A DNA stretch of 64,000 nucleotides from Alphaproteobacteria bacterium (lineage in GTDB: Bacteria > Pseudomonadota > Alphaproteobacteria > Sphingomonadales > Sphingomonadaceae), in contig JAFANP010000006.1 in NCBI GenBank assembly GCA_019232625.1, positions 124,001-188,000 of the forward strand, read 5' to 3'. Under the pieces are notes generated by a model that saw only the letters and a program-made list of their open reading frames with translations, was not told the origin of the DNA and ran no database searches. The translations under genes and the position numbers were made by a program. This document shows, piece by piece, positions 5,703-18,217 of the stretch; within the stretch, counting starts at the first letter, position 1, and each line of letters opens with the position of its first letter.

Positions 5703-6902
5703 GTGATCACGCCACATGAGGGGTCACCCACATCAAAGCTTCCCCCGCGAAGGTCGAAGAACGAGTTCTATCGGTATTACGCGGGATATCCGCTCGACTT
5801 TGCGGAGTGGGCACTTGGCAAGCTGGGGCTTCCGGCCGGAGGTCTTGTTGTAGACCCTTGGAATGGTTCCGGAACGACTGCCGCCGCATGCGCTCGCCTT
5901 GGCTTCTCCTTTCAGGGCTACGATATCAACCCGGTAATGGTCCATCTTGGACGCGCTCGCGTTGCTTCATCAGTAGACTTTGAAGAGGCCCGCGAAATGA
6001 TCGACTGCGTGGCGGAGATCATCGCCGGCGTACCGTCGCTGACGGTGGCTGCTGCTGGCCAAGCTTTCCGTGAAATCCCTGTCACAAATGAGGCGGCGCA
6101 TAGCATAGCCATTGCCGCGCTATTCCCTTTGGCGAGAAATCTCCTCGGCGAGGAGAAGACGAAGAACCCATCTTGGTTTCGGGCTGGCATATCGCTTCGG
6201 GACGCGCCCCTCGATGAGATGGTTTTTTTGGACCGCTGGCGATCGCTCCTCAGCGACGTGGCCCAGTGGCGAAGCACCCGCGACGACCCAGATGGGTCCG
6301 TCATCAGCGTCGAGCGAGGAGACTCCCGAAAATCCCTAGGCCGCAAAGACGCGTTTGACGGGCTTCTCTCGTCACCCCCGTATCTCACGCGGCTTGACTA
6401 CGTCCACGCCACTCTCCCGGAGTTTCTGCTCCTGGCCGAGTTCGATTCAGTTCCTGATATGCAGCGTCTGCGACGCTCGATGCTTGGGTCGCCTTTGACA
6501 AGCGGACGACCCAAAGAAAATGTGGAGCGCCTACCTGAAGACATCAAACGCCTCCTGCAAGCTATCCAGAACCACACATCAAAGGCATCCGCGTCATACT
6601 ATCTCCGGTTTTTTTCTACATACTTTGTTGACCTGCAGGCGTCGATGCGGAACATAGCGAAGGTGCTGAAGGTCGGGGGCCGGGGCTGCTTGGTGGTACA
6701 ATCAAGCCACTACAAGGAAATCGAGATCGATCTCGCCAAAGCGGTCATATCGCTAGCGACGGATTTGGGTCTGCGGCACATCGAGACGGTGGAGTTCATT
6801 TCGAAGCGGTCTATGTCACTGGTTAATACGCGAGCACACGAAGAAGCTCGTAAGCCGAAGGCCGAGTCAGCGGTCTTTCTTCAAAGGAATGCCCGATGTT
6901 AG
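5703..6902 (+). CDS. DNA methyltransferase (N4/N6 amino-methylase type)
   Basis: The 399-residue protein starts at a GTG preceded by GGGGGAG. Near residues 51-59 it carries the S-adenosylmethionine motif I as DPWNGSGTT, followed by the acidic motif II region FQGYDINPV. Motif IV is SSPPYL near residue 224, the catalytic signature of enzymes that methylate exocyclic amino groups of A or C. The order I then IV, about 170 residues apart, leaves room for target recognition between them. Near residue 320 there is a KVLKVGGRGCLVVQ strand typical of these folds. It is the first gene of a three-gene operon; its last 7 bases overlap the DUF262 gene. GC is lower than in flanking genes. It probably marks host DNA as self. 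Confidence 0.85.
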   Translation: MITPHEGSPTSKLPPRRSKNEFYRYYAGYPLDFAEWALGKLGLPAGGLVVDPWNGSGTTAAACARLGFSFQGYDINPVMVHLGRARVASSVDFEEAREMIDCVAEIIAGVPSLTVAAAGQAFREIPVTNEAAHSIAIAALFPLARNLLGEEKTKNPSWFRAGISLRDAPLDEMVFLDRWRSLLSDVAQWRSTRDDPDGSVISVERGDSRKSLGRKDAFDGLLSSPPYLTRLDYVHATLPEFLLLAEFDSVPDMQRLRRSMLGSPLTSGRPKENVERLPEDIKRLLQAIQNHTSKASASYYLRFFSTYFVDLQASMRNIAKVLKVGGRGCLVVQSSHYKEIEIDLAKAVISLATDLGLRHIETVEFISKRSMSLVNTRAHEEARKPKAESAVFLQRNARC

Positions 6903-7930
6903 CTGTCTACTCACCTATGTCCGTTGGCGACTATTGCAAGGCTCTGAATGACGGATTGATAATTGTTAATGACGAGTATCAGCGGAACGCTGGCATCTGG
7001 GCGCCGTACGCGCGGTCGTTTTTCATTGAGTCGATTTTGCTCGAGTATCCTATACCTAAAATATTTTTGTACTCTAAGGTCGATTTGCGTACCCGTAGCA
7101 CAATAAAGGAAATAGTCGACGGACAGCAGAGGAGTCATACACTTCAGCAATTCTATAACCGTAAGTTTCGCCTCTCTATCAAGATTGAAACGGAAGAGCT
7201 TCGTGGGAAGGGTTATAACCAGCTGTCTGAGGAGTTCCAATCGGCATTTATCTCGTACAGCCTTCCTATTGATGAGTTCCGTGGTGTGCAGCCCCTTCAG
7301 ATCCAAGAGTCATTCCGTAGGATGAATGCAAGCAATGTTCCTTTAAATGATGAGGAACAGCGCAATGCAAAGTTTCAGGGACCTTTTAAGTGGTTCATCC
7401 AGCGCGTCTCGCAGCGGTTCTCGGAATCGCTCAGAACCGCAGGAGTGCTGAGTCGAAAAGATATCATTAGAATGGGTGACTCTCGACTGTATTCAGAAAT
7501 CGTTCATACCATCGTCAATGGGTTCGTTACGACAAAGGGTCCTCAGATCGACGCATTGTACAAGCGATTTAACTCGACATTTGCTGAAGAGGAGCAGTAC
7601 TACACATATCTTGAGGCGGGTTTGGGGGGCGCGATCCCGGCAGTGACCGGCGGACCACGCGAGTTGCAGCGTGGGTATATGTTCCAGACCATAGCGCTTA
7701 TCTTTATCGACAGGCAGTTTAACCTGGGATTGGCGGCTGCGGCTGCAGACGCAGCACCGGAGGCGGCAGGCAGCGTCGCGGCAAATCCCGTCGACCTCGG
7801 AATTCTGATCGATGCGCTTCGCGACCCCGAAGCCCATCCACCTCTGGTTGACTTCGTAGAGGCTACCAAGGGAACAAATGTCGGCAAGGCGAAGGCGATC
7901 AGGTTCCTGTACCTCGGTGCGGCGGTCTGA
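6896..7930 (+). CDS. DUF262 (GmrS-like N-terminal domain) protein
   Basis: This 344-residue protein has the defining DUF262 marks: YQRN near residue 28, EIVDGQQRSHTL near 72-83, and FRRMNASNVPLNDEEQRNA near 140-158. DUF262 has a ParB-like fold and forms the nucleotide-dependent half of type IV restriction enzymes such as GmrSD and BrxU. Those enzymes normally carry a DUF1524 HNH nuclease domain as well. None is visible here, since the C-terminal third has no HNH or RxxxR-type motif. The gene overlaps the methyltransferase by 7 bases and the next gene by one base (TGATG), so all three are probably co-translated. Ribosome-binding site AAAGGAA precedes the ATG. The nuclease activity may come from its neighbour. 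Confidence 0.85.
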   Translation: MLAVYSPMSVGDYCKALNDGLIIVNDEYQRNAGIWAPYARSFFIESILLEYPIPKIFLYSKVDLRTRSTIKEIVDGQQRSHTLQQFYNRKFRLSIKIETEELRGKGYNQLSEEFQSAFISYSLPIDEFRGVQPLQIQESFRRMNASNVPLNDEEQRNAKFQGPFKWFIQRVSQRFSESLRTAGVLSRKDIIRMGDSRLYSEIVHTIVNGFVTTKGPQIDALYKRFNSTFAEEEQYYTYLEAGLGGAIPAVTGGPRELQRGYMFQTIALIFIDRQFNLGLAAAAADAAPEAAGSVAANPVDLGILIDALRDPEAHPPLVDFVEATKGTNVGKAKAIRFLYLGAAV

Positions 7931-8577
7931 TGCAGTGCGTGACCGACCTCGCTAAGCTGCGAGACTCAGTCATATCTCGGGTGAGGAACCTCAGCGCGAT
8001 TGTTGGACCGATCAAGCCCCCGCTCAGCTCCGTAGACAGGCAGGCACTGGCGTTCGTAACCATCGAACTCGATAATCTGGTGATTGTGGGCCTGCGACAG
8101 TACACGAAAAGCTCACTGCTTCGGAGCAGGACTGCTGCTGGCGACAGGATAACCGCTAATGTCAGCCCTAACTCTGTGGGCGAGGCGGCTGCATTGATAT
8201 TTAGTTCATTGAACCCGGCTAAATATGTGAAAAAGGGCAGCCCTGTCGTTATCAATGAGGAGGACGAGATAGCATTTCGCGATCCGAAGCAAGCAGAAAA
8301 GGTTCTCCTGGACTATGCCGCATCAAACATCCCAAACTTCGCATTGGCCTTATCGCTGAACGCGCTCATATTCAGCGAGCTAAAGACTTGCCGGCACTTC
8401 TTTGCTCACCGCGCGCGAAACACCTTCGAGAATGTCAGGGATTTCGCAGCTTTACAGGGGATAGCAAACATCGAGATGCCAGAGCGATTATTGGTACACG
8501 GGCGTCCCACTACCGGAACCCGGTTCTTGGACGGCTGGCTTGGCGAGTTGGAGACCTTCTTCGACCTCGCCGCCTAA
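7930..8577 (+). CDS. HEPN-like protein, probable RNase effector
   Basis: The 215-residue product contains RHFFAH at about residues 155-160, which fits the RX4H signature of HEPN ribonucleases, inside an otherwise helical protein. A preceding helix (NFALALSLNALIFSELKTC) fits the four-helix HEPN arrangement. HEPN proteins next to DUF262 proteins are known from defence loci (the MAE_28990 family is one example), though I cannot confirm which family this is. The start codon overlaps the DUF262 stop as TGATG. The expected role is RNA cleavage after infection is sensed. The motif is short, so the fold call needs a profile search or a structure model. Confidence 0.6.
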   Translation: MQCVTDLAKLRDSVISRVRNLSAIVGPIKPPLSSVDRQALAFVTIELDNLVIVGLRQYTKSSLLRSRTAAGDRITANVSPNSVGEAAALIFSSLNPAKYVKKGSPVVINEEDEIAFRDPKQAEKVLLDYAASNIPNFALALSLNALIFSELKTCRHFFAHRARNTFENVRDFAALQGIANIEMPERLLVHGRPTTGTRFLDGWLGELETFFDLAA

Positions 8578-9546: not shown

Positions 9547-9888
9547 TCAGCGGTGGCACACCCTCACGCGCCTGTGGTGGCGCCAGACGGTGCGGCAGTG
9601 GCGGTTGTTGCGCCAGCCGTAGTGGTGGCCGTTGTCGTGGCGGCCGCGCCAGTGGCGGCCGTCGCGGTCGTCGCGATGGTAGCGGTCGCGGTCGCGGTCG
9701 CGCATGCCGTCGCGGTCGCGGTCCCCGCGCATCTCGTGGCGGTCGCGGTCGCGGTCGCCGCGCATGTCGTGGCGGTCGCCTTGCATGTTCTGGTCGTGGC
9801 GGTCCTGGGCGGCGGCGGGGGCCGAGGCGGCGAGGCCGAGGGCGAAGGCGGCGGCGAGGGCGCCGGCGAAAGCGGTGCTGAGCTTCAT
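9547..9888 (-). CDS. Secreted basic RD/HR-rich protein
   Basis: The 113-residue product has a clear signal peptide (MKLSTAFAGALAAAFALGLA, then ASAPAAAQ). The mature part is built of Arg-Asp-His repeats (DRDRDRHEMRGDRDRDGMR-like) and ends with GWRNNRHCRTVWRHHRRVRVC. The C-terminal block with two Cys is shared with the 78-residue protein at 13446-13682. It should be periplasmic or secreted. The repeat part is strongly zwitterionic and probably disordered. No function can be assigned. A GGACC-N17-CGTT element lies upstream, close to the general stress promoter consensus. Confidence 0.7.
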   Translation of the reverse strand: MKLSTAFAGALAAAFALGLAASAPAAAQDRHDQNMQGDRHDMRGDRDRDRHEMRGDRDRDGMRDRDRDRYHRDDRDGRHWRGRHDNGHHYGWRNNRHCRTVWRHHRRVRVCHR

Positions 9889-9934
9889 AATCGTCTCCTT
9901 GGTGCCGGGTCGAGCATGGCCCTTGCGCCGGTGT

Positions 9935-9960
9935 AACGAAGCGCGGGCGGCGAAGGGTCC
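9935..9960 (-). promoter_or_regulatory. Near-consensus EcfG-type promoter
   Basis: Minus-strand GGACC (9960-9956), 17 bases, CGTT (9938-9935), with a 5' leader of about 40 bases to the ATG at 9888. One mismatch to GGAAC. The paralogue at 13446 has the same arrangement and the same CGCTTCGTTAC block, which supports function. Confidence 0.4.
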
Positions 9961-10171
9961 GTCGGAAGGGGTCGTTCCCCGCCGGCCTGCGCCTCGGCGC
10001 CGCGGCGGTCGCAGATCAGGGTCACGGGGCGGGAAGACCCGGCCGTGGCGGCAGAACGGAAAAGGAACGAAATCCGACATTGCAAGTCCTTTTCGCGCCG
10101 CTAAATCCCCCGAAGCGGATATTAAATTCCTGATCTGCGTTAGGGACGGTTCGGCGGCAGCGGAGCGGCAG

Positions 10172-11659
10172 GTGGCGGCAGAAGGCGACAAGGCGAATTT
10201 CGGCGTGGCGGGCCTCGACGACGTCACCGCGGGCGGGCTGGCGCGGGGGCGGCTGTTCCTGCTCGAGGGCAGCCCCGGCACGGGCAAGACGACGATCGCC
10301 ACCCAATTTCTCCTCGCCGGCGCGGCGCAGGGGGAGAGGTCGCTCTACATCACCCTGTCCGAGACCGAGGACGAGCTGCGCGCCGGCGCGGCGTCGCACG
10401 GCTGGGGGCTCGACGGGGTCGACATCTTCGAGCTGGTGCCGCCCGAGAGCCTGCTCGACGACGAGCAGCAGCAGAGCCTGCTCTATTCCTCCGACCTCGA
10501 GCTTGGCGAGACCACCAAGCGGATCTTCGAAGCGTTCGAGCGGGCGCGGCCGGAGCGGGTGGTGCTCGACAGCCTGTCGGAGATCAGGCTGCTCGCCCAG
10601 TCGTCGCTTCGCTACCGGCGGCAGATCCTCGCGCTCAAGCATTATTTCTCGCGCTCGAAGGCGACGGTGCTGATGCTCGACGATTTGTCGAGCGAGGCCA
10701 ACGACAAGACGATGCACAGCGTCGCCCACGGCGTCTTCCGGCTGGAGGAGCTTTCGCCCGAATATGGCGCCGAGCGGCGGCGGATGCGGGTGATCAAGTA
10801 TCGCGGCCAGCGCTATCGCGGCGGCTATCACGACTTCGTCATCGACACGGGCGGGGTGAGGGTGTTCCCGCGGCTGATCTCGGCGGAGCACCGCCAGCCC
10901 TTCGCCCGCGAGGTTCTCGAGACCGACTCGACGCAGCTCAACGCCTTGCTCGGCGGCGGCGTGGAGCGCGGCTCGAGCGTCCTCATCCTCGGCCCGGCGG
11001 GGACCGGCAAGTCGCTGTTCGCGCTCGCCTTCGTCGCGGGCGCGGCGAAGCGCGGCGAGCGCGCGGCGATGTTCGTGTTCGACGAGGAGCTCGGCCTTCT
11101 GTTCGAGCGGGCGCTGGGGCTCGGCATCGACCTCCAGGCGATGGTCGACGGCGGGCAGCTGTTCATCGAGCAGGTCGACGCGGCCGAGCTGACGCCCGGC
11201 GAGCTGTCGGAGCGGGTGCGGCGGCGGGTCGAGGAGCATGAGGTGCGCACCGTCGTCATCGACAGCCTCAACGGCTACCAGGCGGCGATGCCCGGGGAGC
11301 AGGCGCTGATCCTGCACATGCACGAATTGCTGCAATATCTGAACCGCCGCGGCGCCTCGACCTTCCTCACCGTCGCGCAGCACGGGCTGGTCGGCGACAT
11401 GAAGGCGCCGGTCGACGTCACCTACCTCGCCGACACGGTGGTGCTGCTGCGCTATTTCGAGGCGTGCGGCCGGGTGCGGCGGGCGGTCAGCGTCGTCAAG
11501 AAGCGGACGGGCGCCCACGAGGACACGATCCGCGAGTACAGGATCGGCCGCACCGGCATCACCGTCGGCGAGCCGCTGACCGCCTTCCAGGGCGTGCTGC
11601 GCGGCGTGCCGGAGCTGGTCGGCGAGAACCAGCAGCTGCTCGAGGCGCCCGAGGAGTGA
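10172..11659 (+). CDS. KaiC-like double RecA-domain ATPase
   Basis: From the GTG at 10172 the protein is 495 residues, the normal length of bacterial KaiC-like ATPases. Two RecA/KaiC domains follow each other, with Walker A motifs EGSPGTGKTT (about residue 32) and GPAGTGKS (about 273), and Walker B strands RVVLDSLSE and TVVIDSLNG. No ATG is available in frame close to the first domain; the frame stays open upstream to 9704, but that part is low complexity. No KaiA or KaiB is visible. Its stop overlaps the GTG of the following histidine kinase, which strongly suggests a joint signalling role. Outside cyanobacteria such pairs are linked to stress and light signalling, not to a proven clock. Confidence 0.85.
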   Translation: MAAEGDKANFGVAGLDDVTAGGLARGRLFLLEGSPGTGKTTIATQFLLAGAAQGERSLYITLSETEDELRAGAASHGWGLDGVDIFELVPPESLLDDEQQQSLLYSSDLELGETTKRIFEAFERARPERVVLDSLSEIRLLAQSSLRYRRQILALKHYFSRSKATVLMLDDLSSEANDKTMHSVAHGVFRLEELSPEYGAERRRMRVIKYRGQRYRGGYHDFVIDTGGVRVFPRLISAEHRQPFAREVLETDSTQLNALLGGGVERGSSVLILGPAGTGKSLFALAFVAGAAKRGERAAMFVFDEELGLLFERALGLGIDLQAMVDGGQLFIEQVDAAELTPGELSERVRRRVEEHEVRTVVIDSLNGYQAAMPGEQALILHMHELLQYLNRRGASTFLTVAQHGLVGDMKAPVDVTYLADTVVLLRYFEACGRVRRAVSVVKKRTGAHEDTIREYRIGRTGITVGEPLTAFQGVLRGVPELVGENQQLLEAPEE

Positions 11660-13326
11660 TCCCGCATCTCTCCGAGCGCGCGCTGGTGCTGGCGCCGCAG
11701 GGGCGCGACGCGGCGGTCGCCTGCGCGATGCTTCGCGAGGCGGGCCTGCGCGGCCATGTCTGCGCGAGCCTGGCGACCCTGGTCGCCGAACTCGTCGCCG
11801 GCGCCGGCTTCGCCCTCGTCACCGAGGAGGCGCTGCGCGAGGCGGACCTCGCGCCGATGGCGGAGTGGATCCGGCGGCAGCCGGAATGGTCGGACTTTCC
11901 GTTCGTCCTGCTCACCCAGCGCGGCGGGGGACTGGAGCGGAACCCGATGGCGGGCCGCTACCTGGAGGTGCTCGGCAACGTCACCTTCCTCGAGCGGCCC
12001 TTTCACCCGACCACCCTCGTCAGCCTCGCCCAGGCGGCGCTGCGCGGCCGGCGGCGGCAATATGAGGCGCGCGCCCGGCTCGAGGACCTCCACCAGCTCA
12101 CCGCGGACCTCGAGCGCCGGGTCGAGGAACGGACCGCCGAGCACGAATCGGCGATGGCCCAGCTCCACGAGGCGCAGAAGCTGGAGACGCTCGGCCAGCT
12201 GACCGGCGGCGTCGCGCACGACTTCAACAACCTGCTGACGCCGATCACCGGCGCGCTCGACATGCTGCAGCGCAAATATGCGGAGGCCGACCCACGCTCG
12301 GCGCGCCTTCTCGCCAACGCGCTGCAGGCGGCGGACCGCGCCAAGACCCTGGTCCAGCGGCTGCTGGGCTTCGCCCGCCGGCAGACGCTGGAGACGCAGC
12401 CGGTGGACGTCCCGGCGTTGCTCTCCGGCATGCGCGACCTCATCGCCAGCTCGATCGGCTCGACGATCGAGCTGCGCGTCAGGCACGACCGCGACCTGCC
12501 CGCCGCCCTCGGCGACCCCAACCAGCTCGAGCTCGCCATCCTCAATCTGTGCGTCAACGCCCGCGACGCGATGCCCAATGGCGGGCCGCTGACGATCACC
12601 GTCGAGGAGGTGGCGATCGGGCCGGGCTCGGAGGCCAAGCTGTCGCCGGCCCTCTACGTCCGGGTCTCGGTGATCGACGCGGGCTGCGGCATGGATGCCG
12701 AGACGCTGGCCAGGGCGGTCGAGCCCTTCTACTCGACCAAGGAGACGGGGCGCGGCACCGGGCTGGGCCTCTCGATGGTGCACGGCCTCGCCGCGCAGCT
12801 CGGCGGCGGCTTCACGCTGTCGAGCGAGCCCGGCCGGGGCACCCGCGCCGATCTCTACCTGCCGATCTCCGACGACGTCGAGCCTCGCGCCGCGACCCGC
12901 GCCGCGCGGCCGGCCTCCCTCCCCGGCAGGCCGCTGTCGATCCTCCTCGTCGACGACGAGGAGATCGTGCGCGTCGGCACCGGCGAGATGATACGCGATC
13001 TCGGCCACAGCGTCGTCGAGGCGCGCGGCGGCGCCGAGGCGCTGGCCCTGCTTCGCGAAGGGATGCGCCCCGACGTGGTCATCACCGACTACAAGATGCC
13101 GCGGATGGACGGCTCGGAGCTGGCGCGGCGGATCCACGAATCCTACCCGTCGATGCCGCTTCTGCTGATCACGGGCTATACCGGCAGGACGGAGGAGCTT
13201 CCGCACCTGCCGCGTCTGGCAAAGCCGTTCGGGCAGGCGGAAATCGCCTCGGCCCTCGCGACCCTTCTGGTGGAGGACGACAAGGTGGTGAGGCTCGCCG
13301 GGGCGAAGCGCGAGCCGCGAGCCTGA
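11656..13326 (+). CDS. Hybrid histidine kinase with C-terminal receiver domain
   Basis: A 556-residue soluble protein starting at a GTG that overlaps the KaiC-like stop codon (GTGA). Residues 1-130 look like a degenerate receiver domain, with no clear phosphoacceptor Asp. A coiled coil (LTADLERRVEERTAE) follows, then the H-box GGVAHDFNNLL with His near 188. Next is a HATPase domain with the N-box NLCVNARDAM, DAGCGMD and GTGLGLSMVHG, and a C-terminal receiver with LLVDDEE and Asp in VVITDYKMP near 477. There is no transmembrane segment, so it senses inside the cell. The KaiC-like neighbour may feed it. Confidence 0.88.
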   Translation: MIPHLSERALVLAPQGRDAAVACAMLREAGLRGHVCASLATLVAELVAGAGFALVTEEALREADLAPMAEWIRRQPEWSDFPFVLLTQRGGGLERNPMAGRYLEVLGNVTFLERPFHPTTLVSLAQAALRGRRRQYEARARLEDLHQLTADLERRVEERTAEHESAMAQLHEAQKLETLGQLTGGVAHDFNNLLTPITGALDMLQRKYAEADPRSARLLANALQAADRAKTLVQRLLGFARRQTLETQPVDVPALLSGMRDLIASSIGSTIELRVRHDRDLPAALGDPNQLELAILNLCVNARDAMPNGGPLTITVEEVAIGPGSEAKLSPALYVRVSVIDAGCGMDAETLARAVEPFYSTKETGRGTGLGLSMVHGLAAQLGGGFTLSSEPGRGTRADLYLPISDDVEPRAATRAARPASLPGRPLSILLVDDEEIVRVGTGEMIRDLGHSVVEARGGAEALALLREGMRPDVVITDYKMPRMDGSELARRIHESYPSMPLLLITGYTGRTEELPHLPRLAKPFGQAEIASALATLLVEDDKVVRLAGAKREPRA

Positions 13327-13445
13327 ACCGCCACGATCCGTCCGTCGCCGCTCCCGTGCGGAGAGGACGTGCCCTCGAACCCGTCGAGCGGCTGGTCGGC
13401 GCCATCGGCCGGAGCGGATGCGCTCCGGCCGATGACGGCCGGGCT

Positions 13446-13682
13446 TCAGCGGTAGCGCCAGGTGCAGACGCGCTCGCGGTGGTGGTGGCGCCAGACGGTG
13501 CGGCAGACGCGGACGCGGCGGTGCTTGTTGCGCCATCCCATGTGGCGGCCGCGATCGCGGTGCACGACGGTCGTGGTACGGACCACGGTTCGCTCGTTGC
13601 GCTGGGCGCTTGCAGGCGCCTCGAAGCCGAACGACGTGAGCACAAGCGCCGCGGCGGCGGCGGCCATGACCGTGATCTTCAT
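13446..13682 (-). CDS. Small secreted basic protein, paralogue of 9547-9888
   Basis: A 78-residue protein with signal peptide MKITVMAAAAAALVLTSF ending near ASAQ. The mature part is rich in Arg, His and Thr and ends GWRNKHRRVRVCRTVWRHHHRERVC. That C-terminal block, with its paired Cys and Trp, matches the protein at 9547-9888, which has an added Arg-Asp repeat. The two genes sit on the minus strand on either side of the KaiC/kinase pair. A GGAGC-N16-CGTT element lies upstream at the same distance as in the paralogue. Function is unknown. Confidence 0.7.
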   Translation of the reverse strand: MKITVMAAAAAALVLTSFGFEAPASAQRNERTVVRTTTVVHRDRGRHMGWRNKHRRVRVCRTVWRHHHRERVCTWRYR

Positions 13683-13723
13683 GAGCGATACTCCTCTTAC
13701 GACAGACCCCCTGTCGCGGGCGT

Positions 13724-13748
13724 AACGAAGCGGCGGGCCAGAGGCTCC
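13724..13748 (-). promoter_or_regulatory. Near-consensus EcfG-type promoter
   Basis: Minus-strand GGAGC (13748-13744), 16 bases, CGTT (13727-13724), about 35 bases before the predicted transcript reaches the ATG at 13682. It shares CGCTTCGTTAC with the promoter of the paralogue at 9888. Confidence 0.4.
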
Positions 13749-14354: not shown

Positions 14355-15941
14355 TCAGCGCCGCTCGGCCTTCTCGACGACCGCGATCGCCAGGCTGTAG
14401 CGCCCCTCATCCGTATCGCGCGCGAGGGTGGTGCGCAGCTGCCGCGAAAGGCCGGTGACGATCCGCTCGAACCGCTCGGTCAGCGCGGGATCGCAGGTGA
14501 CGTCGCCCTTGAGCGTGTCCGTCTCGACGCTGAGGGTGGCGGTAGAGGCGCCGCTCTCGCCGCCCAGCGCGATGGCGACGGAGGCGGCCCCGCAAAGCAT
14601 CGCATATTCGACCAGCTCGGTGATCAGGAAGGCGACCGAGACGGCGACGTCCTGGGTGGCATAATAGGATTCCAGATCGAGCCTTATGGCCATCCCGGCG
14701 GCGGACTGGGGCGCCGTGCCGCGCAGATTGGCGGCCAGCTCAGAGATGAGCGGCTTGAGCGCGACGCCCCTATTCTCCTCAAGCTCCGCATAGTGGTTGC
14801 GGTGGACGACGGCGAGCGCATCCACGCGCCGCTGGATCGAGGCGTAGGCGGCGGAGACCTGCTCGTTCGGCGAGCCGCGGGCGTGGAGGTTGAGCAGCGA
14901 GGCGACGACCTGGAGGTTGTTCTTGACGCGGTGGTGCACCTCGCGGACCAGCCGCGTCTGGCGATCCACCGCCGCCTCGAGCTCGGCTTCGTGGCGGGCC
15001 ACCGTCCGCACCACCGTGTCGAAGGCGCCGCCCAGCTCGCCTATCTCGCGCGCCGGCGTCGCCAGCGGCGGGATGCCGATGTCGCGGTCGCCCGGCCGGT
15101 AGGTGGAGACGGCGCGCTGCAGCTTGGCGAGGGGACGCAGAAGGTAGCTGTTGAGGATCAGCCAGCCGATCGCCGCCGCGGCGAGCCACATCAGCACCGG
15201 CAGCAGGATCATCAGCAGGTCGACCGCGCCGATGGGCCGGGCGCCAAGGGCGAGCGAGAGGGTGAGCTGGCCGCCCGCGACCGGCTCGCTCCTCCGGACG
15301 GTGCGGACGAAGGCGCCGCCCTGATAGGCCTCGCGCAGCTTCATGACGCGGCCGGGCTGGCTGAGCGCAAGGTCGAAATTGCGGCTGGTGCCGGGGATGT
15401 AGCTGAGCACGCTGAGCGCGGACGCGGGATATTCCGCGACGCCCTGGAGCGCGCCGCCTCCGCCGTAGACGAAGAGGCGCAGCGCGCCGCCGCCGGGCAC
15501 TATCTCGGCGCGGACGCCGGGACCGCGGGCCGGCGCCACCGAGGCGAGCGGGACGAAGCCCCGGCTCTGGCAGCGGGGCAAGGGGCTTCCCGCATAGAGG
15601 GCATAGCGCGCCTCCACCGGATCCTGCTCGAGCTGCGCCAGCGTCTTCCCGCAGACGTCAGGGACGGAGGGGGCGGCGGCGATGGCCGCGCTCGCGGTGC
15701 GCAAGGTAAGGACGCTGCGCGAGAAAGCGGCGTTCAGGCGTTGCGCCTTTATCTCCAGCCGGGCGACGGTCTCGGCGCGCCGCTGGTCGTCCTTCTGCTG
15801 TGCGCTGTGGAGCGTGGCGAGGATCGCGACGAGGCCCAAGGGCAGCAGCGCCGCCGATAGGATGAGCAGCATCTTGAGGCCCGTCGACAGGCGAGCGAAC
15901 GACGCACCAATTCTGCCCTGTTCGTTGGTCGTCACGTCCAC
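14355..15941 (-). CDS. phyP: PhyP-like HisKA_2 sensor of the general stress response
   Basis: A 528-residue membrane sensor. A transmembrane segment near residues 22-42 and another near 240-265 enclose a periplasmic domain; a HAMP-like linker follows. The phosphorylation box is REVHHRVKNNLQVVASLLNL, with the His near residue 336, typical of HisKA_2 kinases. The ATP-binding domain is degenerate: the usual N-box Asn is absent (ELVEYAMLCG in place of ELVTNALKH-type) and no clear DNG or GLG motif follows. In Sphingomonas, PhyP encoded beside phyR/nepR acts as a negative regulator, probably a PhyR phosphatase. The weak ATP site fits that role. It lies 25 bases after nepR in a likely operon. Confidence 0.8.
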   Translation of the reverse strand: MDVTTNEQGRIGASFARLSTGLKMLLILSAALLPLGLVAILATLHSAQQKDDQRRAETVARLEIKAQRLNAAFSRSVLTLRTASAAIAAAPSVPDVCGKTLAQLEQDPVEARYALYAGSPLPRCQSRGFVPLASVAPARGPGVRAEIVPGGGALRLFVYGGGGALQGVAEYPASALSVLSYIPGTSRNFDLALSQPGRVMKLREAYQGGAFVRTVRRSEPVAGGQLTLSLALGARPIGAVDLLMILLPVLMWLAAAAIGWLILNSYLLRPLAKLQRAVSTYRPGDRDIGIPPLATPAREIGELGGAFDTVVRTVARHEAELEAAVDRQTRLVREVHHRVKNNLQVVASLLNLHARGSPNEQVSAAYASIQRRVDALAVVHRNHYAELEENRGVALKPLISELAANLRGTAPQSAAGMAIRLDLESYYATQDVAVSVAFLITELVEYAMLCGAASVAIALGGESGASTATLSVETDTLKGDVTCDPALTERFERIVTGLSRQLRTTLARDTDEGRYSLAIAVVEKAERR

Positions 15942-15966
15942 TCGATCGCCGCGGGAGCGGCCGCCC

Positions 15967-16164
15967 TTAGCCGAGCTTGCCGAGCAGATCGAGCATTTCG
16001 GGTGGAATTTCTTCCCTCACCGCCTGCTCGTAGGCGGCCCGCAACGCATGGCCCACCTCCGGACTCGCCCCGCGCTTGCGCTTCGTCCGCGGCGCGTCGT
16101 GCATGTCGGTTTGGGGCGTTTGCTCGTTCTTGCGCCGGCGATCCCTATCGTCTTCGAAGGTCAA
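15967..16164 (-). CDS. nepR: Anti-sigma factor NepR
   Basis: The C-terminal part carries the NepR signature GHALRAAYEQAVREEIPPEM followed by LDLLGKL, the two helices that clamp EcfG and are released when phosphorylated PhyR mimics sigma. The start is uncertain. A TTG at 16164 with GAGGGG eight bases upstream gives 65 residues, the usual NepR length; the first in-frame ATG (16104) gives only 45 and has no visible ribosome-binding site. A GGAAC-N17-GTT promoter lies upstream. phyP follows on the same strand after 25 bases, and phyR is divergent. Confidence 0.9.
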   Translation of the reverse strand: MTFEDDRDRRRKNEQTPQTDMHDAPRTKRKRGASPEVGHALRAAYEQAVREEIPPEMLDLLGKLG

Positions 16165-16292
16165 AATAACATTCCCCTCGCGGCCGGCGCCGCGCCCGCT
16201 CGTTCCGTCGGAGCCCACGCTCGACTCCACACCATGGAACGACGATGCGCGAACCCACCCCGCGGCCAATAATGGCGCGCAGTCCGCCTTGA

Positions 16293-16317
16293 AACAAAAA
16301 AGTCGTACGATGGTTCC
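16293..16317 (-). promoter_or_regulatory. EcfG-dependent promoter of nepR-phyP
   Basis: Minus-strand GGAAC (16317-16313), a 17-base spacer and GTT (16295-16293). This matches the stress sigma consensus, and feedback control of nepR by EcfG is known in alphaproteobacteria. The intergenic region 16165-16449 holds no other feature I can support; the phyR promoter is not obvious. Confidence 0.65.
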
Positions 16318-16449
16318 ACCGCTTCGAAAGGGAGCGGGCAGGGCCGTTTTCCTGTGCGTGCGCGATGCGAAGGCGGGTCCGGAGGCGGACTTGCAAAGCG
16401 TTCGGCACGCTCACAATAGACCCGTATTCGGACAGGAGTCGCAACGAAC

Positions 16450-17250
16450 ATGTCGCTTGGCCAGGATCTCGCGCCCCACCTCCCCTTTCTCCGGCGCTAC
16501 GCGCGCGCTCTCACCGGCAGCCAGCAGCATGGCGACGCCTTCGTTCGGGCGACGCTCGAGGCGATCGTCGCGGCGCCGGGCGAGTTCCCGCGCAACGTCG
16601 ACCCGCGGCTGGGCCTATACCGCACCTTCCACGCCATCTGGGATTCGGCCCATATCGAGGACGATCCGGGCGACGCCGGCGCGGTGAACGAGAGCGAGAT
16701 CATCGCCCGCGCGCGGCTCGCGCCGATCACCCCGGTCTCGCGCCAGGCGCTGCTCCTCACCGCGATGGAGGGCTTCACGGCGGAGGACGCCGGCTATCTG
16801 ATCGGCGCGAGCGCGGAGGACGTCGACCGGCTCGTCGCCGAAGCCCATGCCGAGATCGAGCGGCAGACGCGCGCCGACGTCCTCATCATCGAGGACGAGC
16901 CGATCATCGCGATGGACATCGAGACGATCGTGAGGGACCTCGGCCACAACGTCACCGGCGTCGCCGTCACCCGCGACGAGGCGGTGGCGCAGGCGATGGC
17001 GCGGCGGCCCGGCCTGGTGCTGGCGGACATCCAGCTCGCCGACGACAGTTCCGGCATCGACGCGGTCAAGGACATACTTTCCGAGTTCGAAGTGCCGGTG
17101 ATCTTCATCACCGCCTTCCCCGAGCGTCTCCTCAGCGGCGAGCGGCCCGAGCCGACCTTCCTGATCAGCAAGCCGTTCCAGCGCTCGACCGTCCGGGCCT
17201 CCATCGCGCAGGCGCTCTTCTTCGACCGCGAGACTCTTCCCGCCGGATAA
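16450..17250 (+). CDS. phyR: General stress response regulator PhyR
   Basis: The 266-residue protein has the PhyR layout: an N-terminal sigma-like domain (MSLGQDLAPHLPFLRRYARAL, sigma2-like; then FTAEDAGYLIGASAEDVDRLV, sigma4-like) and a C-terminal receiver (VLIIEDEPIIAMDIE, phosphoacceptor Asp in LVLADIQLADDSSGID, Lys in FLISKPF). When phosphorylated, its sigma-like part binds NepR and frees EcfG. It is divergent from nepR-phyP and followed by a small membrane protein and ecfG on the same strand. All key receiver residues are present. Confidence 0.96.
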   Translation: MSLGQDLAPHLPFLRRYARALTGSQQHGDAFVRATLEAIVAAPGEFPRNVDPRLGLYRTFHAIWDSAHIEDDPGDAGAVNESEIIARARLAPITPVSRQALLLTAMEGFTAEDAGYLIGASAEDVDRLVAEAHAEIERQTRADVLIIEDEPIIAMDIETIVRDLGHNVTGVAVTRDEAVAQAMARRPGLVLADIQLADDSSGIDAVKDILSEFEVPVIFITAFPERLLSGERPEPTFLISKPFQRSTVRASIAQALFFDRETLPAG

Positions 17251-17274
17251 GTCCCGCCGGCCGGGCGTTCGTTC

Positions 17275-17299
17275 GGAACCGGCGCGCGCAGCGGGCGTT
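17275..17299 (+). promoter_or_regulatory. EcfG-dependent promoter upstream of the small membrane gene and ecfG
   Basis: GGAAC (17275-17279), a 17-base spacer and GTT (17297-17299) lie 34 bases before the 45-residue ORF. Auto-control of ecfG is known in this pathway, so the site is in the expected place. Confidence 0.65.
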
Positions 17300-17332
17300 G
17301 CCCGCCTGAAACGATTTCGGAACCGAGGTACC

Positions 17333-17470
17333 ATGGACGACGGCGAACGCCATATCGACACCACGCGGGCGCGGGCGGGGCAGACCAACCACATGACCCG
17401 CGTCATCCTGCCGGCGAGCCTCGGGCTCGTCGTCGTCGCCTTCCTCCTTCTGTTGCTGATCTGGCGCTAG
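17333..17470 (+). CDS. Small single-pass membrane protein between phyR and ecfG
   Basis: A 45-residue ORF with ribosome-binding site GAGG before the ATG. A charged N-terminus (MDDGERHIDTTRARAG) is followed by a transmembrane helix (VILPASLGLVVVAFLLLLLI) near residues 24-43 and ends with Trp-Arg. It sits behind an EcfG-type promoter and 48 bases before ecfG, so it is probably co-transcribed with the sigma factor. It could be a membrane-bound modulator or simply a stress protein. I know no named family. Confidence 0.6.
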   Translation: MDDGERHIDTTRARAGQTNHMTRVILPASLGLVVVAFLLLLLIWR

Positions 17471-17518
17471 CTACCTACATCGGGGAGGATCGGGACGGCC
17501 CGCCGTTCCCGCAATCGC

Positions 17519-18217
17519 ATGAGCGAATATAGTATAGCGTCTAACGGGGGCAGCTTGACCCAGCAGCCGGTGATCACGGACGAAGAGGACGACGAGTTCG
17601 AGGCGCCGCGCCCCGAGCCGGTGCCGCTTCCCGACGACGAGTTCAAGGATCAGCTCGCGCAGGTGATCCCCCACCTGCGCGCCTTCGGGCGCTCGCTTTC
17701 GGGCAGCCGCGACCTCGCCGACGACCTCGTCCAGGAGACGCTGCTCAAGGCCTGGGCCGCGCGCAAGCGCTTCCAGGCCGGCACCAACATGCGCGCCTGG
17801 ACCTTCATCATCCTGAGGAACCTGTTCCTCAGCCAGATGCGCCGCGCCCGCTTCAAGGGCGAGTGGGACGAGATCACCGCCTCCAAGATGCTGGCGGCGC
17901 CGGCCAGCCAGGACCGGCACGTCGAGCTGACCGACATGCAGCGGGCGCTCCTCCATCTGCCCCAGCCGCAGCGCGAGGCCCTGATCCTCGTCGGGGCGGG
18001 CGGCTTCGCCTATGAGGAGGCGGCCGAGATTTGCGGCTGCGCGGTCGGCACCATCAAGAGCCGGGTCGCGCGCGGCCGGGTCGCGCTCGAGCACCTGCTC
18101 GCCGAAGGCAAGCTGCCGTCGCGCCGCGAGCACGAGACGGACGGCAGCTCCGCTCTCGCCAGCATCATGGCGGAAGTGGACGACCTCAGCCGCGACCGCG
18201 ATCCGAGGACGGACTGA
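17519..18217 (+). CDS. ecfG: General stress sigma factor EcfG
   Basis: The 232-residue protein is an ECF sigma factor. An acidic N-terminal extension (about 40 residues) precedes region 2 ([20 protein letters not shown], then QETLLKAWAARKRFQ) and region 4 (MQRALLHLPQPQREALILVG, then YEEAAEICGCAVGTIKSRVAR). The position beside phyR and nepR identifies it as EcfG. In unstressed cells it is held by NepR; on PhyR phosphorylation it directs transcription from GGAAC-N16/17-GTT promoters. It is preceded by one such element at 17275. Confidence 0.95.
   Translation: MSEYSIASNGGSLTQQPVITDEEDDEFEAPRPEPVPLPDDEFKDQLAQVIPHLRAFGRSLSGSRDLADDLVQETLLKAWAARKRFQAGTNMRAWTFIILRNLFLSQMRRARFKGEWDEITASKMLAAPASQDRHVELTDMQRALLHLPQPQREALILVGAGGFAYEEAAEICGCAVGTIKSRVARGRVALEHLLAEGKLPSRREHETDGSSALASIMAEVDDLSRDRDPRTD

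Follow-up and report, generated by a model that had tools for sequence, protein, structure and literature searches.

The question raised by this locus is whether a clock-type ATPase, a kinase, and two small secreted proteins that lie next to a general stress response (GSR) locus belong to one pathway or are neighbors with related promoters. In the window analyzed here, by which we mean the whole stretch of 64,000 nucleotides (nt), the genes for a KaiC-like ATPase and a hybrid histidine kinase (kaiC-HK) are flanked by the genes of two basic proteins, P1 and P2. Our best explanation, which we hold at about even confidence, is that a stress-type sigma factor induces kaiC-HK as a module and that this factor, or one like it, acts on P1 and P2 in their own right. 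The layout given in a first-pass annotation of this DNA was borne out: kaiC ends at 11659 and the kinase gene begins with GTG at 11656, so that the two overlap in GTGA; a minus-strand gene on each side encodes the tail GWRN..CRTVWRHH..RVC; GGACC-N17-CGTT and GGAGC-N16-CGTT precede P1 and P2; and the stress locus adjoins at 14355-18217, with a phyP-like HisKA_2 kinase gene, nepR, phyR, a gene for a 45-amino-acid (aa) membrane protein, and ecfG. The assembly comprises 3.6 Mb in 66 contigs, with a completeness of 99.99%.

Upstream regions of kaiC were compared across 96 loci, made up of the best 80 of 422 loci encoding a relative (84,980 species genomes) and 17 further stretches, less two duplicates, plus the window; this sample leaves out distant KaiC. 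Within 250 nt upstream of kaiC, GGAAC and GGATC were the two commonest 5-mers 16 or 17 nt before CGTT (98 loci, before the duplicates were removed). GGAAC-N16/17-CGTT preceded kaiC at 10/96 loci, where 300 shuffles gave a mean of 0.22 and a maximum of 2, and GGATC-N16/17-CGTT at 8/96 (shuffle mean, 0.39; maximum, 4). The GGAAC group includes Sphingobium, Novosphingobium, Sphingomonas, and two Bradyrhizobium, and the GGATC group consists mostly of the closest Sphingomonas and Sphingobium orthologues. Among the nine closest kaiC genes (at least 81.5% identity, window included), eight carry GGAT(C/A)-N16/17-CGTT 21 to 35 nt before the assumed start, with identities of 0.95 in the -35 and 1.00 in the -10 box, against 0.41 in the spacer, 0.31 in the leader, and 0.25 upstream. 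Judged from sequence, kaiC appears to carry a stress-type promoter both here and in relatives, which we consider new; no open-access full text was found that joins KaiC with EcfG, nor one that joins circadian clock protein KaiC with a sigma factor and alphaproteobacteria. As a separate observation, a kinase resembling the phyP product (62 and 64 bits) is encoded within the kaiC loci L036 and L037, and the 250 nt upstream of kaiC in L036 resemble, by eye, the end of a phyP-like kinase gene.

The promoters of P1 and P2 share the block CGCTTCGTTAC, found exactly at 9933-9943 and 13722-13732 and at only these two places in the assembly. As the same pattern read backwards also occurs twice, the argument that the block is rare and hence functional was dropped, and conservation in relatives was needed instead. 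Relatives of P1 and P2 were found at E<1e-5 in four other genomes of the genus (G004, G024, G021, and G001) among 60 genomes searched with the own genome included; same-genus matches at about 1e-4 to 1e-2 (e.g., G016, G008, G009, and G002) lie outside this set. Across the resulting eight genes in five genomes, the promoters read GGACC-CGTT in six, GGACC-TGTT in one, and GGAGC-CGTT in one (P2 of the window), with a spacing of 16 or 17 in all eight. GGACC-N16/17-CGTT was present in 6/8 of the 160-nt upstream regions, compared with a mean of 0.013 and a maximum of 1 in 2,000 dinucleotide shuffles; one promoter lies 113 nt from its ATG, and in the window the end of CGTT is 46 nt (P1) and 41 nt (P2) from the ATG. 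Mean pairwise identity is 0.95 in the -35 and 0.94 in the -10 box and drops to 0.35 in the spacer and 0.34 in the leader. Because they are conserved in relatives, which the window and genome alone cannot show, these promoters are not chance matches and, by sequence, are conserved elements of the extracytoplasmic function (ECF) type. Each box does differ by one base from the stress sigma consensus, as had been noted earlier; the deviation is itself conserved (GGACC in 7/8, GGAGC in 1/8), so the sites are not simply weak ones. Together with the related element before kaiC, this conservation makes a stress-type transcription link plausible for all three units.

P1 and P2 have N-termini that look like signal peptides by eye, and their tails are 64.5% identical over 31 aa; both probably act in the envelope. 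A profile search of 298 family genomes matched 34 (E<=1e-4, own included), and part of these matches are other small envelope proteins. Loci were available for 29 of the 38 matches outside the window, a sample to which the own genome and six more from its genus contributed. A fixed pattern recognized the P1/P2-type tail in 10/29, and 4 of these 10 have GGA(C/G)C-N16/17-CGTT upstream (shuffle mean, 0.04; maximum, 1); the count is 4/11 with L347, whose tail fits by eye, fails the pattern, and is without the promoter motif. GGAAC-N16/17-CGTT was present in 0/29 of these distant loci. A promoter of the P1 type, GGACC-N16-CGTTATC, also precedes genes of another small envelope protein family in L369 and L371, at 37 and 34 nt from the ATG; the L369 protein contains YCRRDNGTTGLVIGAGVGAL. 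Upstream of small exported-protein genes of Sphingomonadaceae where the GGACC promoter is absent, a GAAC...GTTCA-like element recurs by eye (e.g., L358, L359, L367, and L373).

The ATPase belongs to the KaiC family, with PF06745 matching in two stretches, two tandem ATPase domains whose Walker A motifs read GSPGTGKT and GPAGTGKS, and a full-length alignment to KaiC in PDB. It falls short of the NCBIfam KaiC equivalog cut-offs (259.8 of 408 and 152.1 of 546.25). At the position of what we take to be the phosphosite pair in CII of the cyanobacterial clock KaiC, S431/T432, the aligned residues are T-Y rather than S-T, and phosphorylation of this threonine is possible from the alignment. No KaiB gene was found in 10/10 genomes with this kaiC, 6 of which have a completeness of 90% or more and a contamination of 5% or less, by a search that detects KaiB in Synechococcus elongatus. 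Given the lack of KaiB and the T-Y pair, this is not a KaiABC clock.

The gene after kaiC encodes the same N-terminal domain in 94/96 loci; of the two exceptions, one contig ends first, and in L121 the start choice missed the domain and a kinase match is present. The two genes overlap by exactly 4 nt in 71/96 loci, and the HDFNN box, presumably a CckA-type kinase motif, is found in 85/96 of the kinases. The kinase of the window is CckA-like, with HisKA (PF00512, 2.1e-10) and HATPase_c; no Pfam match to HisKA_2 or HWE_HK, the classes expected of PhyR-feeding kinases, was obtained up to E 1. This speaks against the earlier proposal that KaiC and the kinase form an upstream part of the stress pathway. 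Residues 1-165 are predicted to adopt the (beta-alpha)5 receiver fold (predicted local distance difference test score, 92.3), and the model matches PDB receivers such as PhoB, KdpE, and PleD (Foldseek E 5e-6; VIA Z about 15); CikA and KaiA are absent among the 50 structural matches listed per search. In an alignment of 56 sequences (the window and 55 relatives; 18 invariant columns), the acid pair is replaced by Ala13 and Pro14 (each in 55/56), the phospho-Asp by Glu in 49/56 (Asp in 6, Gln in 1), and the Lys by Arg in 56/56, while T is kept in 54/56. When the domain was aligned automatically to the C-terminal receiver of the same kinase, E57, T87, and R114 fell opposite D, T, and K, but the first strand was misplaced; the placement of A13-P14 comes from the predicted strand and from inspection by eye. 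On this model, the domain is a pseudo-receiver as defined in PMC12632262, namely, a receiver with at least one of DD, D, T, and K missing. The cyanobacterial clock involves the pseudo-receivers of CikA and KaiA (PMC12632262), so a contact between this domain and KaiC is a natural guess by analogy.

Several findings weigh against induction of these units by sigma-EcfG. Although the -10 CGTT at N16/17 is present in the P1, P2, and kaiC promoters, none has the -35 GGAAC: P1 has GGACC, P2 has GGAGC, and kaiC in the window has GGATA, two bases off. GGAAC is found in 0/8 P1/P2 family promoters and, as GGAAC-N16/17-CGTT, in 25/25 ecfG units of the genus (25 of 26 genomes; G004, 87% complete, gave no ecfG match at 1e-40); according to PMC7083833, only 3/79 -35 boxes of Sphingopyxis granuli GSR promoters break the AAC triplet, which is thus near-invariant in a measured regulon. 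GGANC-N16/17-CGTT is missing within 250 nt upstream in 77/96 kaiC loci, and one close orthologue, L035, lacks GGAT(C/A)-N16/17-CGTT. Genome-wide, GGAAC sites (34, against 28 in the reversed control) are barely above background, and GGACC-N16/17-CGTT sites (38 against 44) are unenriched. A large GGACC regulon was rejected on the latter count and on two wider ones: 4 matches in 26 genus genomes against 3 in the control (N15/16, a range that misses part of the sites), and 55 matches of GGACCC-N14/15-TCGTTA in 47 of the 298 family genomes, with more than 55 in the reversed control. The conserved C or G at the fourth -35 base means that either EcfG tolerates these bases in P1/P2, making its control of them possible from the motif, or another ECF sigma factor reads them. 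The second option, a factor with a -35 of GGACC(C) to which proximity of the stress locus is accidental, is compatible with the kaiC part of our explanation, and we regard it as possible though somewhat doubtful. Beyond the 8/8 P1/P2 promoters with GGACC or GGAGC, it is favored by the 22 PF08281 matches in the genome, some of which may represent regulators of another kind that share the domain, so that other ECF sigma factors probably exist beside the one EcfG found at E<=1e-40, and by the location of a P2 relative about 195 kb from ecfG in G001 and on different short contigs in G024 and G021. Against it stand the -10 box, which is that of EcfG, the unenriched GGACC sites, and the rarity of such an element near sigma genes: of 19 sigma-domain stretches examined among the 21 matches besides ecfG (the nearest 40% identical to EcfG over 126 aa), one has GGANC-N16/17-CGTT upstream, a GGACC about 540 nt before the sigma match on contig C58. 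Orthologous kaiC promoters that alternate between GGAAC and GGATC favor one sigma factor reading both, which argues mildly for EcfG. GGACCC..TCGTT is also found at G000:C23:21390-21414 (minus strand; loci L343 and L206), 41 nt upstream of the start codon of a long open reading frame (ORF); by eye a surface protein, this ORF may be another member of the GGACC class.

That a single stress pathway runs from KaiC and the kinase to the secreted proteins, as first annotated, is suggested by proximity and similar promoters. The comparative evidence does not join the genes in this way. P1, P2, or EcfG was detected at E<=1e-5, a threshold that could miss diverged P1/P2 members, in 0/95 other kaiC loci in the DNA fetched (15 kb or more in 79/95), and PhyR/PhyP matches there are domain-level, at most 71 bits. 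All 12 stress loci taken from relatives contain phyP, nepR, phyR, the 45-aa gene, and ecfG, and none of them (two shorter than 6 kb) has kaiC or a clear secreted gene adjoining; conserved synteny with the stress locus was rejected on this basis. Arg/Asp-rich low-complexity sequence seems to account for the weak P1 matches, which are scattered through kaiC loci at 30-36 bits and have 33-41 bits in four GSR loci. The P1/P2 paralogues of G004 and G024 lie in tandem, in the order and on the single strand seen in the window, with gaps of about 188 and 135 nt and no kaiC between them, so that in the window the kaiC pair separates genes adjacent elsewhere. The search for the same gene set in other genomes, proposed along with the annotation, thus came out negative: kaiC, the kinase gene, P1, and P2 are not a conserved unit in the sequences compared, and their neighborhood with the stress locus looks particular to this genome. 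With a HisKA kinase and an output-type promoter on kaiC itself, a single pathway is very unlikely; what survives of the idea of secreted stress outputs is the plausible promoter link. It is also unlikely, if somewhat less so, that kaiC-HK has nothing to do with stress and instead senses energy or timing as a housekeeping function, with something else reading its GGATC/GGAAC-CGTT element. The many upstream regions without the element would fit such a role, but the enrichment far exceeds shuffles, the footprint in the close group is strong, and kaiC mutants of Methylorubrum extorquens are described in PMC8069551 as altered in ultraviolet (UV) and heat resistance.

The favored explanation, a stress-induced kaiC-HK module with P1 and P2 as separate targets, would proceed as follows. 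Three independently transcribed units, kaiC-HK, P2, and P1, would lie side by side, the first being a co-translated operon and a widespread alphaproteobacterial module. Transcription of kaiC-HK from GGA(A/T)C-N16/17-CGTT would depend on an ECF sigma factor of the stress type, for which sigma-EcfG is the simplest candidate. The module would then lie on the output side of the general stress response and, for as long as stress persists, sense energy or time; the kinase would read out the ATPase via its N-terminal pseudo-receiver, and the signal would pass via phosphorylation at HisKA and then the C-terminal receiver into a phosphorelay. P2 and P1 would be a split tandem pair, each transcribed from a conserved GGA(C/G)C-N16/17-CGTT promoter of its own that is recognized either by the same sigma factor, if it tolerates the fourth base, or by another ECF sigma factor of overlapping specificity. 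More tentatively, a KaiB-less KaiC with a pseudo-receiver kinase might commonly serve Alphaproteobacteria as a timer or energy gauge that stress induces: sigma-EcfG or a close ECF sigma factor would turn the pair on, and the pair would set the duration or strength of a phosphorelay, with fourth -35 bases specific to each family (A/T for kaiC, C/G for the secreted proteins). KaiC relatives whose use is unclear occur in many bacteria that lack a KaiABC clock; the pairing with a pseudo-receiver kinase and the frequent stress-type promoters offer a testable role, that of a KaiC module as a general stress response output. The conserved fourth-base change would likewise provide a clean test of promoter discrimination by EcfG-type sigma factors. 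In our view, the better lead is the KaiC-kinase module, which has stress-type promoters at a fair share of its alphaproteobacterial loci and whose kinase begins with a pseudo-receiver.

Parts of this arrangement resemble known systems. In the account given in PMC8069551, KaiC1 and KaiC2 of M. extorquens (Methylorubrum/Methylobacterium) act on temperature-dependent UV resistance, and kaiC2-kaiR2 of strain AM1 is, as here, an alphaproteobacterial cluster without kaiB that pairs kaiC with a regulator gene and whose deletion alters UV and heat resistance. AM1 differs in having kaiB genes in its other cluster and in phosphorylating KaiC2 on S426, where the pair here is T-Y (PMC8069551); KaiR2 is likened by description, not sequence, and may or may not have a pseudo-receiver. 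In Rhodobacter sphaeroides, too, kaiC shares an operon with a histidine kinase gene, but that operon, as presented in PMC5520375, includes kaiB. The pseudo-receivers of CikA and KaiA share a receiver fold without phosphotransfer residues in a Kai-system protein, and CikA is likewise a hybrid kinase; however, the pseudo-receiver of CikA binds KaiB (PMC12632262), for which no gene was found here, and the domain here is N-terminal in a HisKA hybrid kinase with a C-terminal receiver. The sphingomonad sigma-EcfG regulon described in PMC7083833 has the GGA.C-N16/17-CGTT geometry and the -10 CGTT in common with our promoters, and the ecfG unit itself reads GGAAC-N16-CGTT; the fourth -35 base is C/G in P1/P2 relatives and T in close kaiC promoters, not A. 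All features are listed in Table 1.

Table 1. Positions in the window of the kaiC-HK, P1, and P2 units and of the adjoining stress locus
Feature	Coordinates	Strand	Basis or remark
P1, exported basic protein, 113 aa, tail GWRNNRHCRTVWRHHRRVRVC	9547..9888	-	ORF translation; relatives found
P1 promoter, ECF-type, GGACC-N17-CGTT(AC)	9935..9960	-	conserved in relatives
kaiC-HK promoter, ECF-type, GGATA-N16-CGTT	10117..10141	+	close orthologues have GGATC-N16/17-CGTT
KaiC-like double ATPase	10172..11659	+	start GTG 10172 inferred; PF06745 1.4e-68; PDB KaiC 8zn5 3.3e-57
Hybrid histidine kinase	11656..13326	+	pseudo-receiver (about 1-134), HisKA, HATPase_c, receiver
Pseudo-receiver domain of kinase	11656..12057	+	A13-P14 at acid pair, E57 at Asp, R114 at Lys
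P2, exported basic protein, 78 aa, P1 paralogue	13446..13682	-	ORF translation; tail alignment
P2 promoter, ECF-type, GGAGC-N16-CGTT(AC)	13724..13748	-	sequence; relatives compared
Predicted exported protein (by eye), 148 aa, divergent from P2	13824..14270	+	no family above cut-off
PhyP/PhyK-like HisKA_2 kinase, stress locus	14355..15941	-	domain searches
NepR anti-sigma factor	15967..16164	-	start TTG inferred
GGAAC-N16-TGTT upstream of nepR	16293..16317	-	seen by eye
PhyR	16450..17250	+	NF006623 6.4e-111
EcfG-consensus promoter GGAAC-N16-CGTT, 45-aa protein/ecfG unit	17275..17299	+	sequence; relatives compared
45-aa single-span membrane protein, between phyR and ecfG	17333..17470	+	in 12/12 stress loci fetched
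EcfG sigma factor	17519..18217	+	domain searches

Within the stress locus, the gene of the 45-aa membrane protein is probably the first in the transcription unit with the GGAAC promoter. Between lepA and the kaiC/P1/P2 locus, the segment at 5703-8577 has a low G+C content (0.54 in 6001-8000) and encodes a partial N6/N4 DNA methylase match, a GmrSD_N restriction-type protein, and a third product without a family, and it is likely a restriction or defense island.

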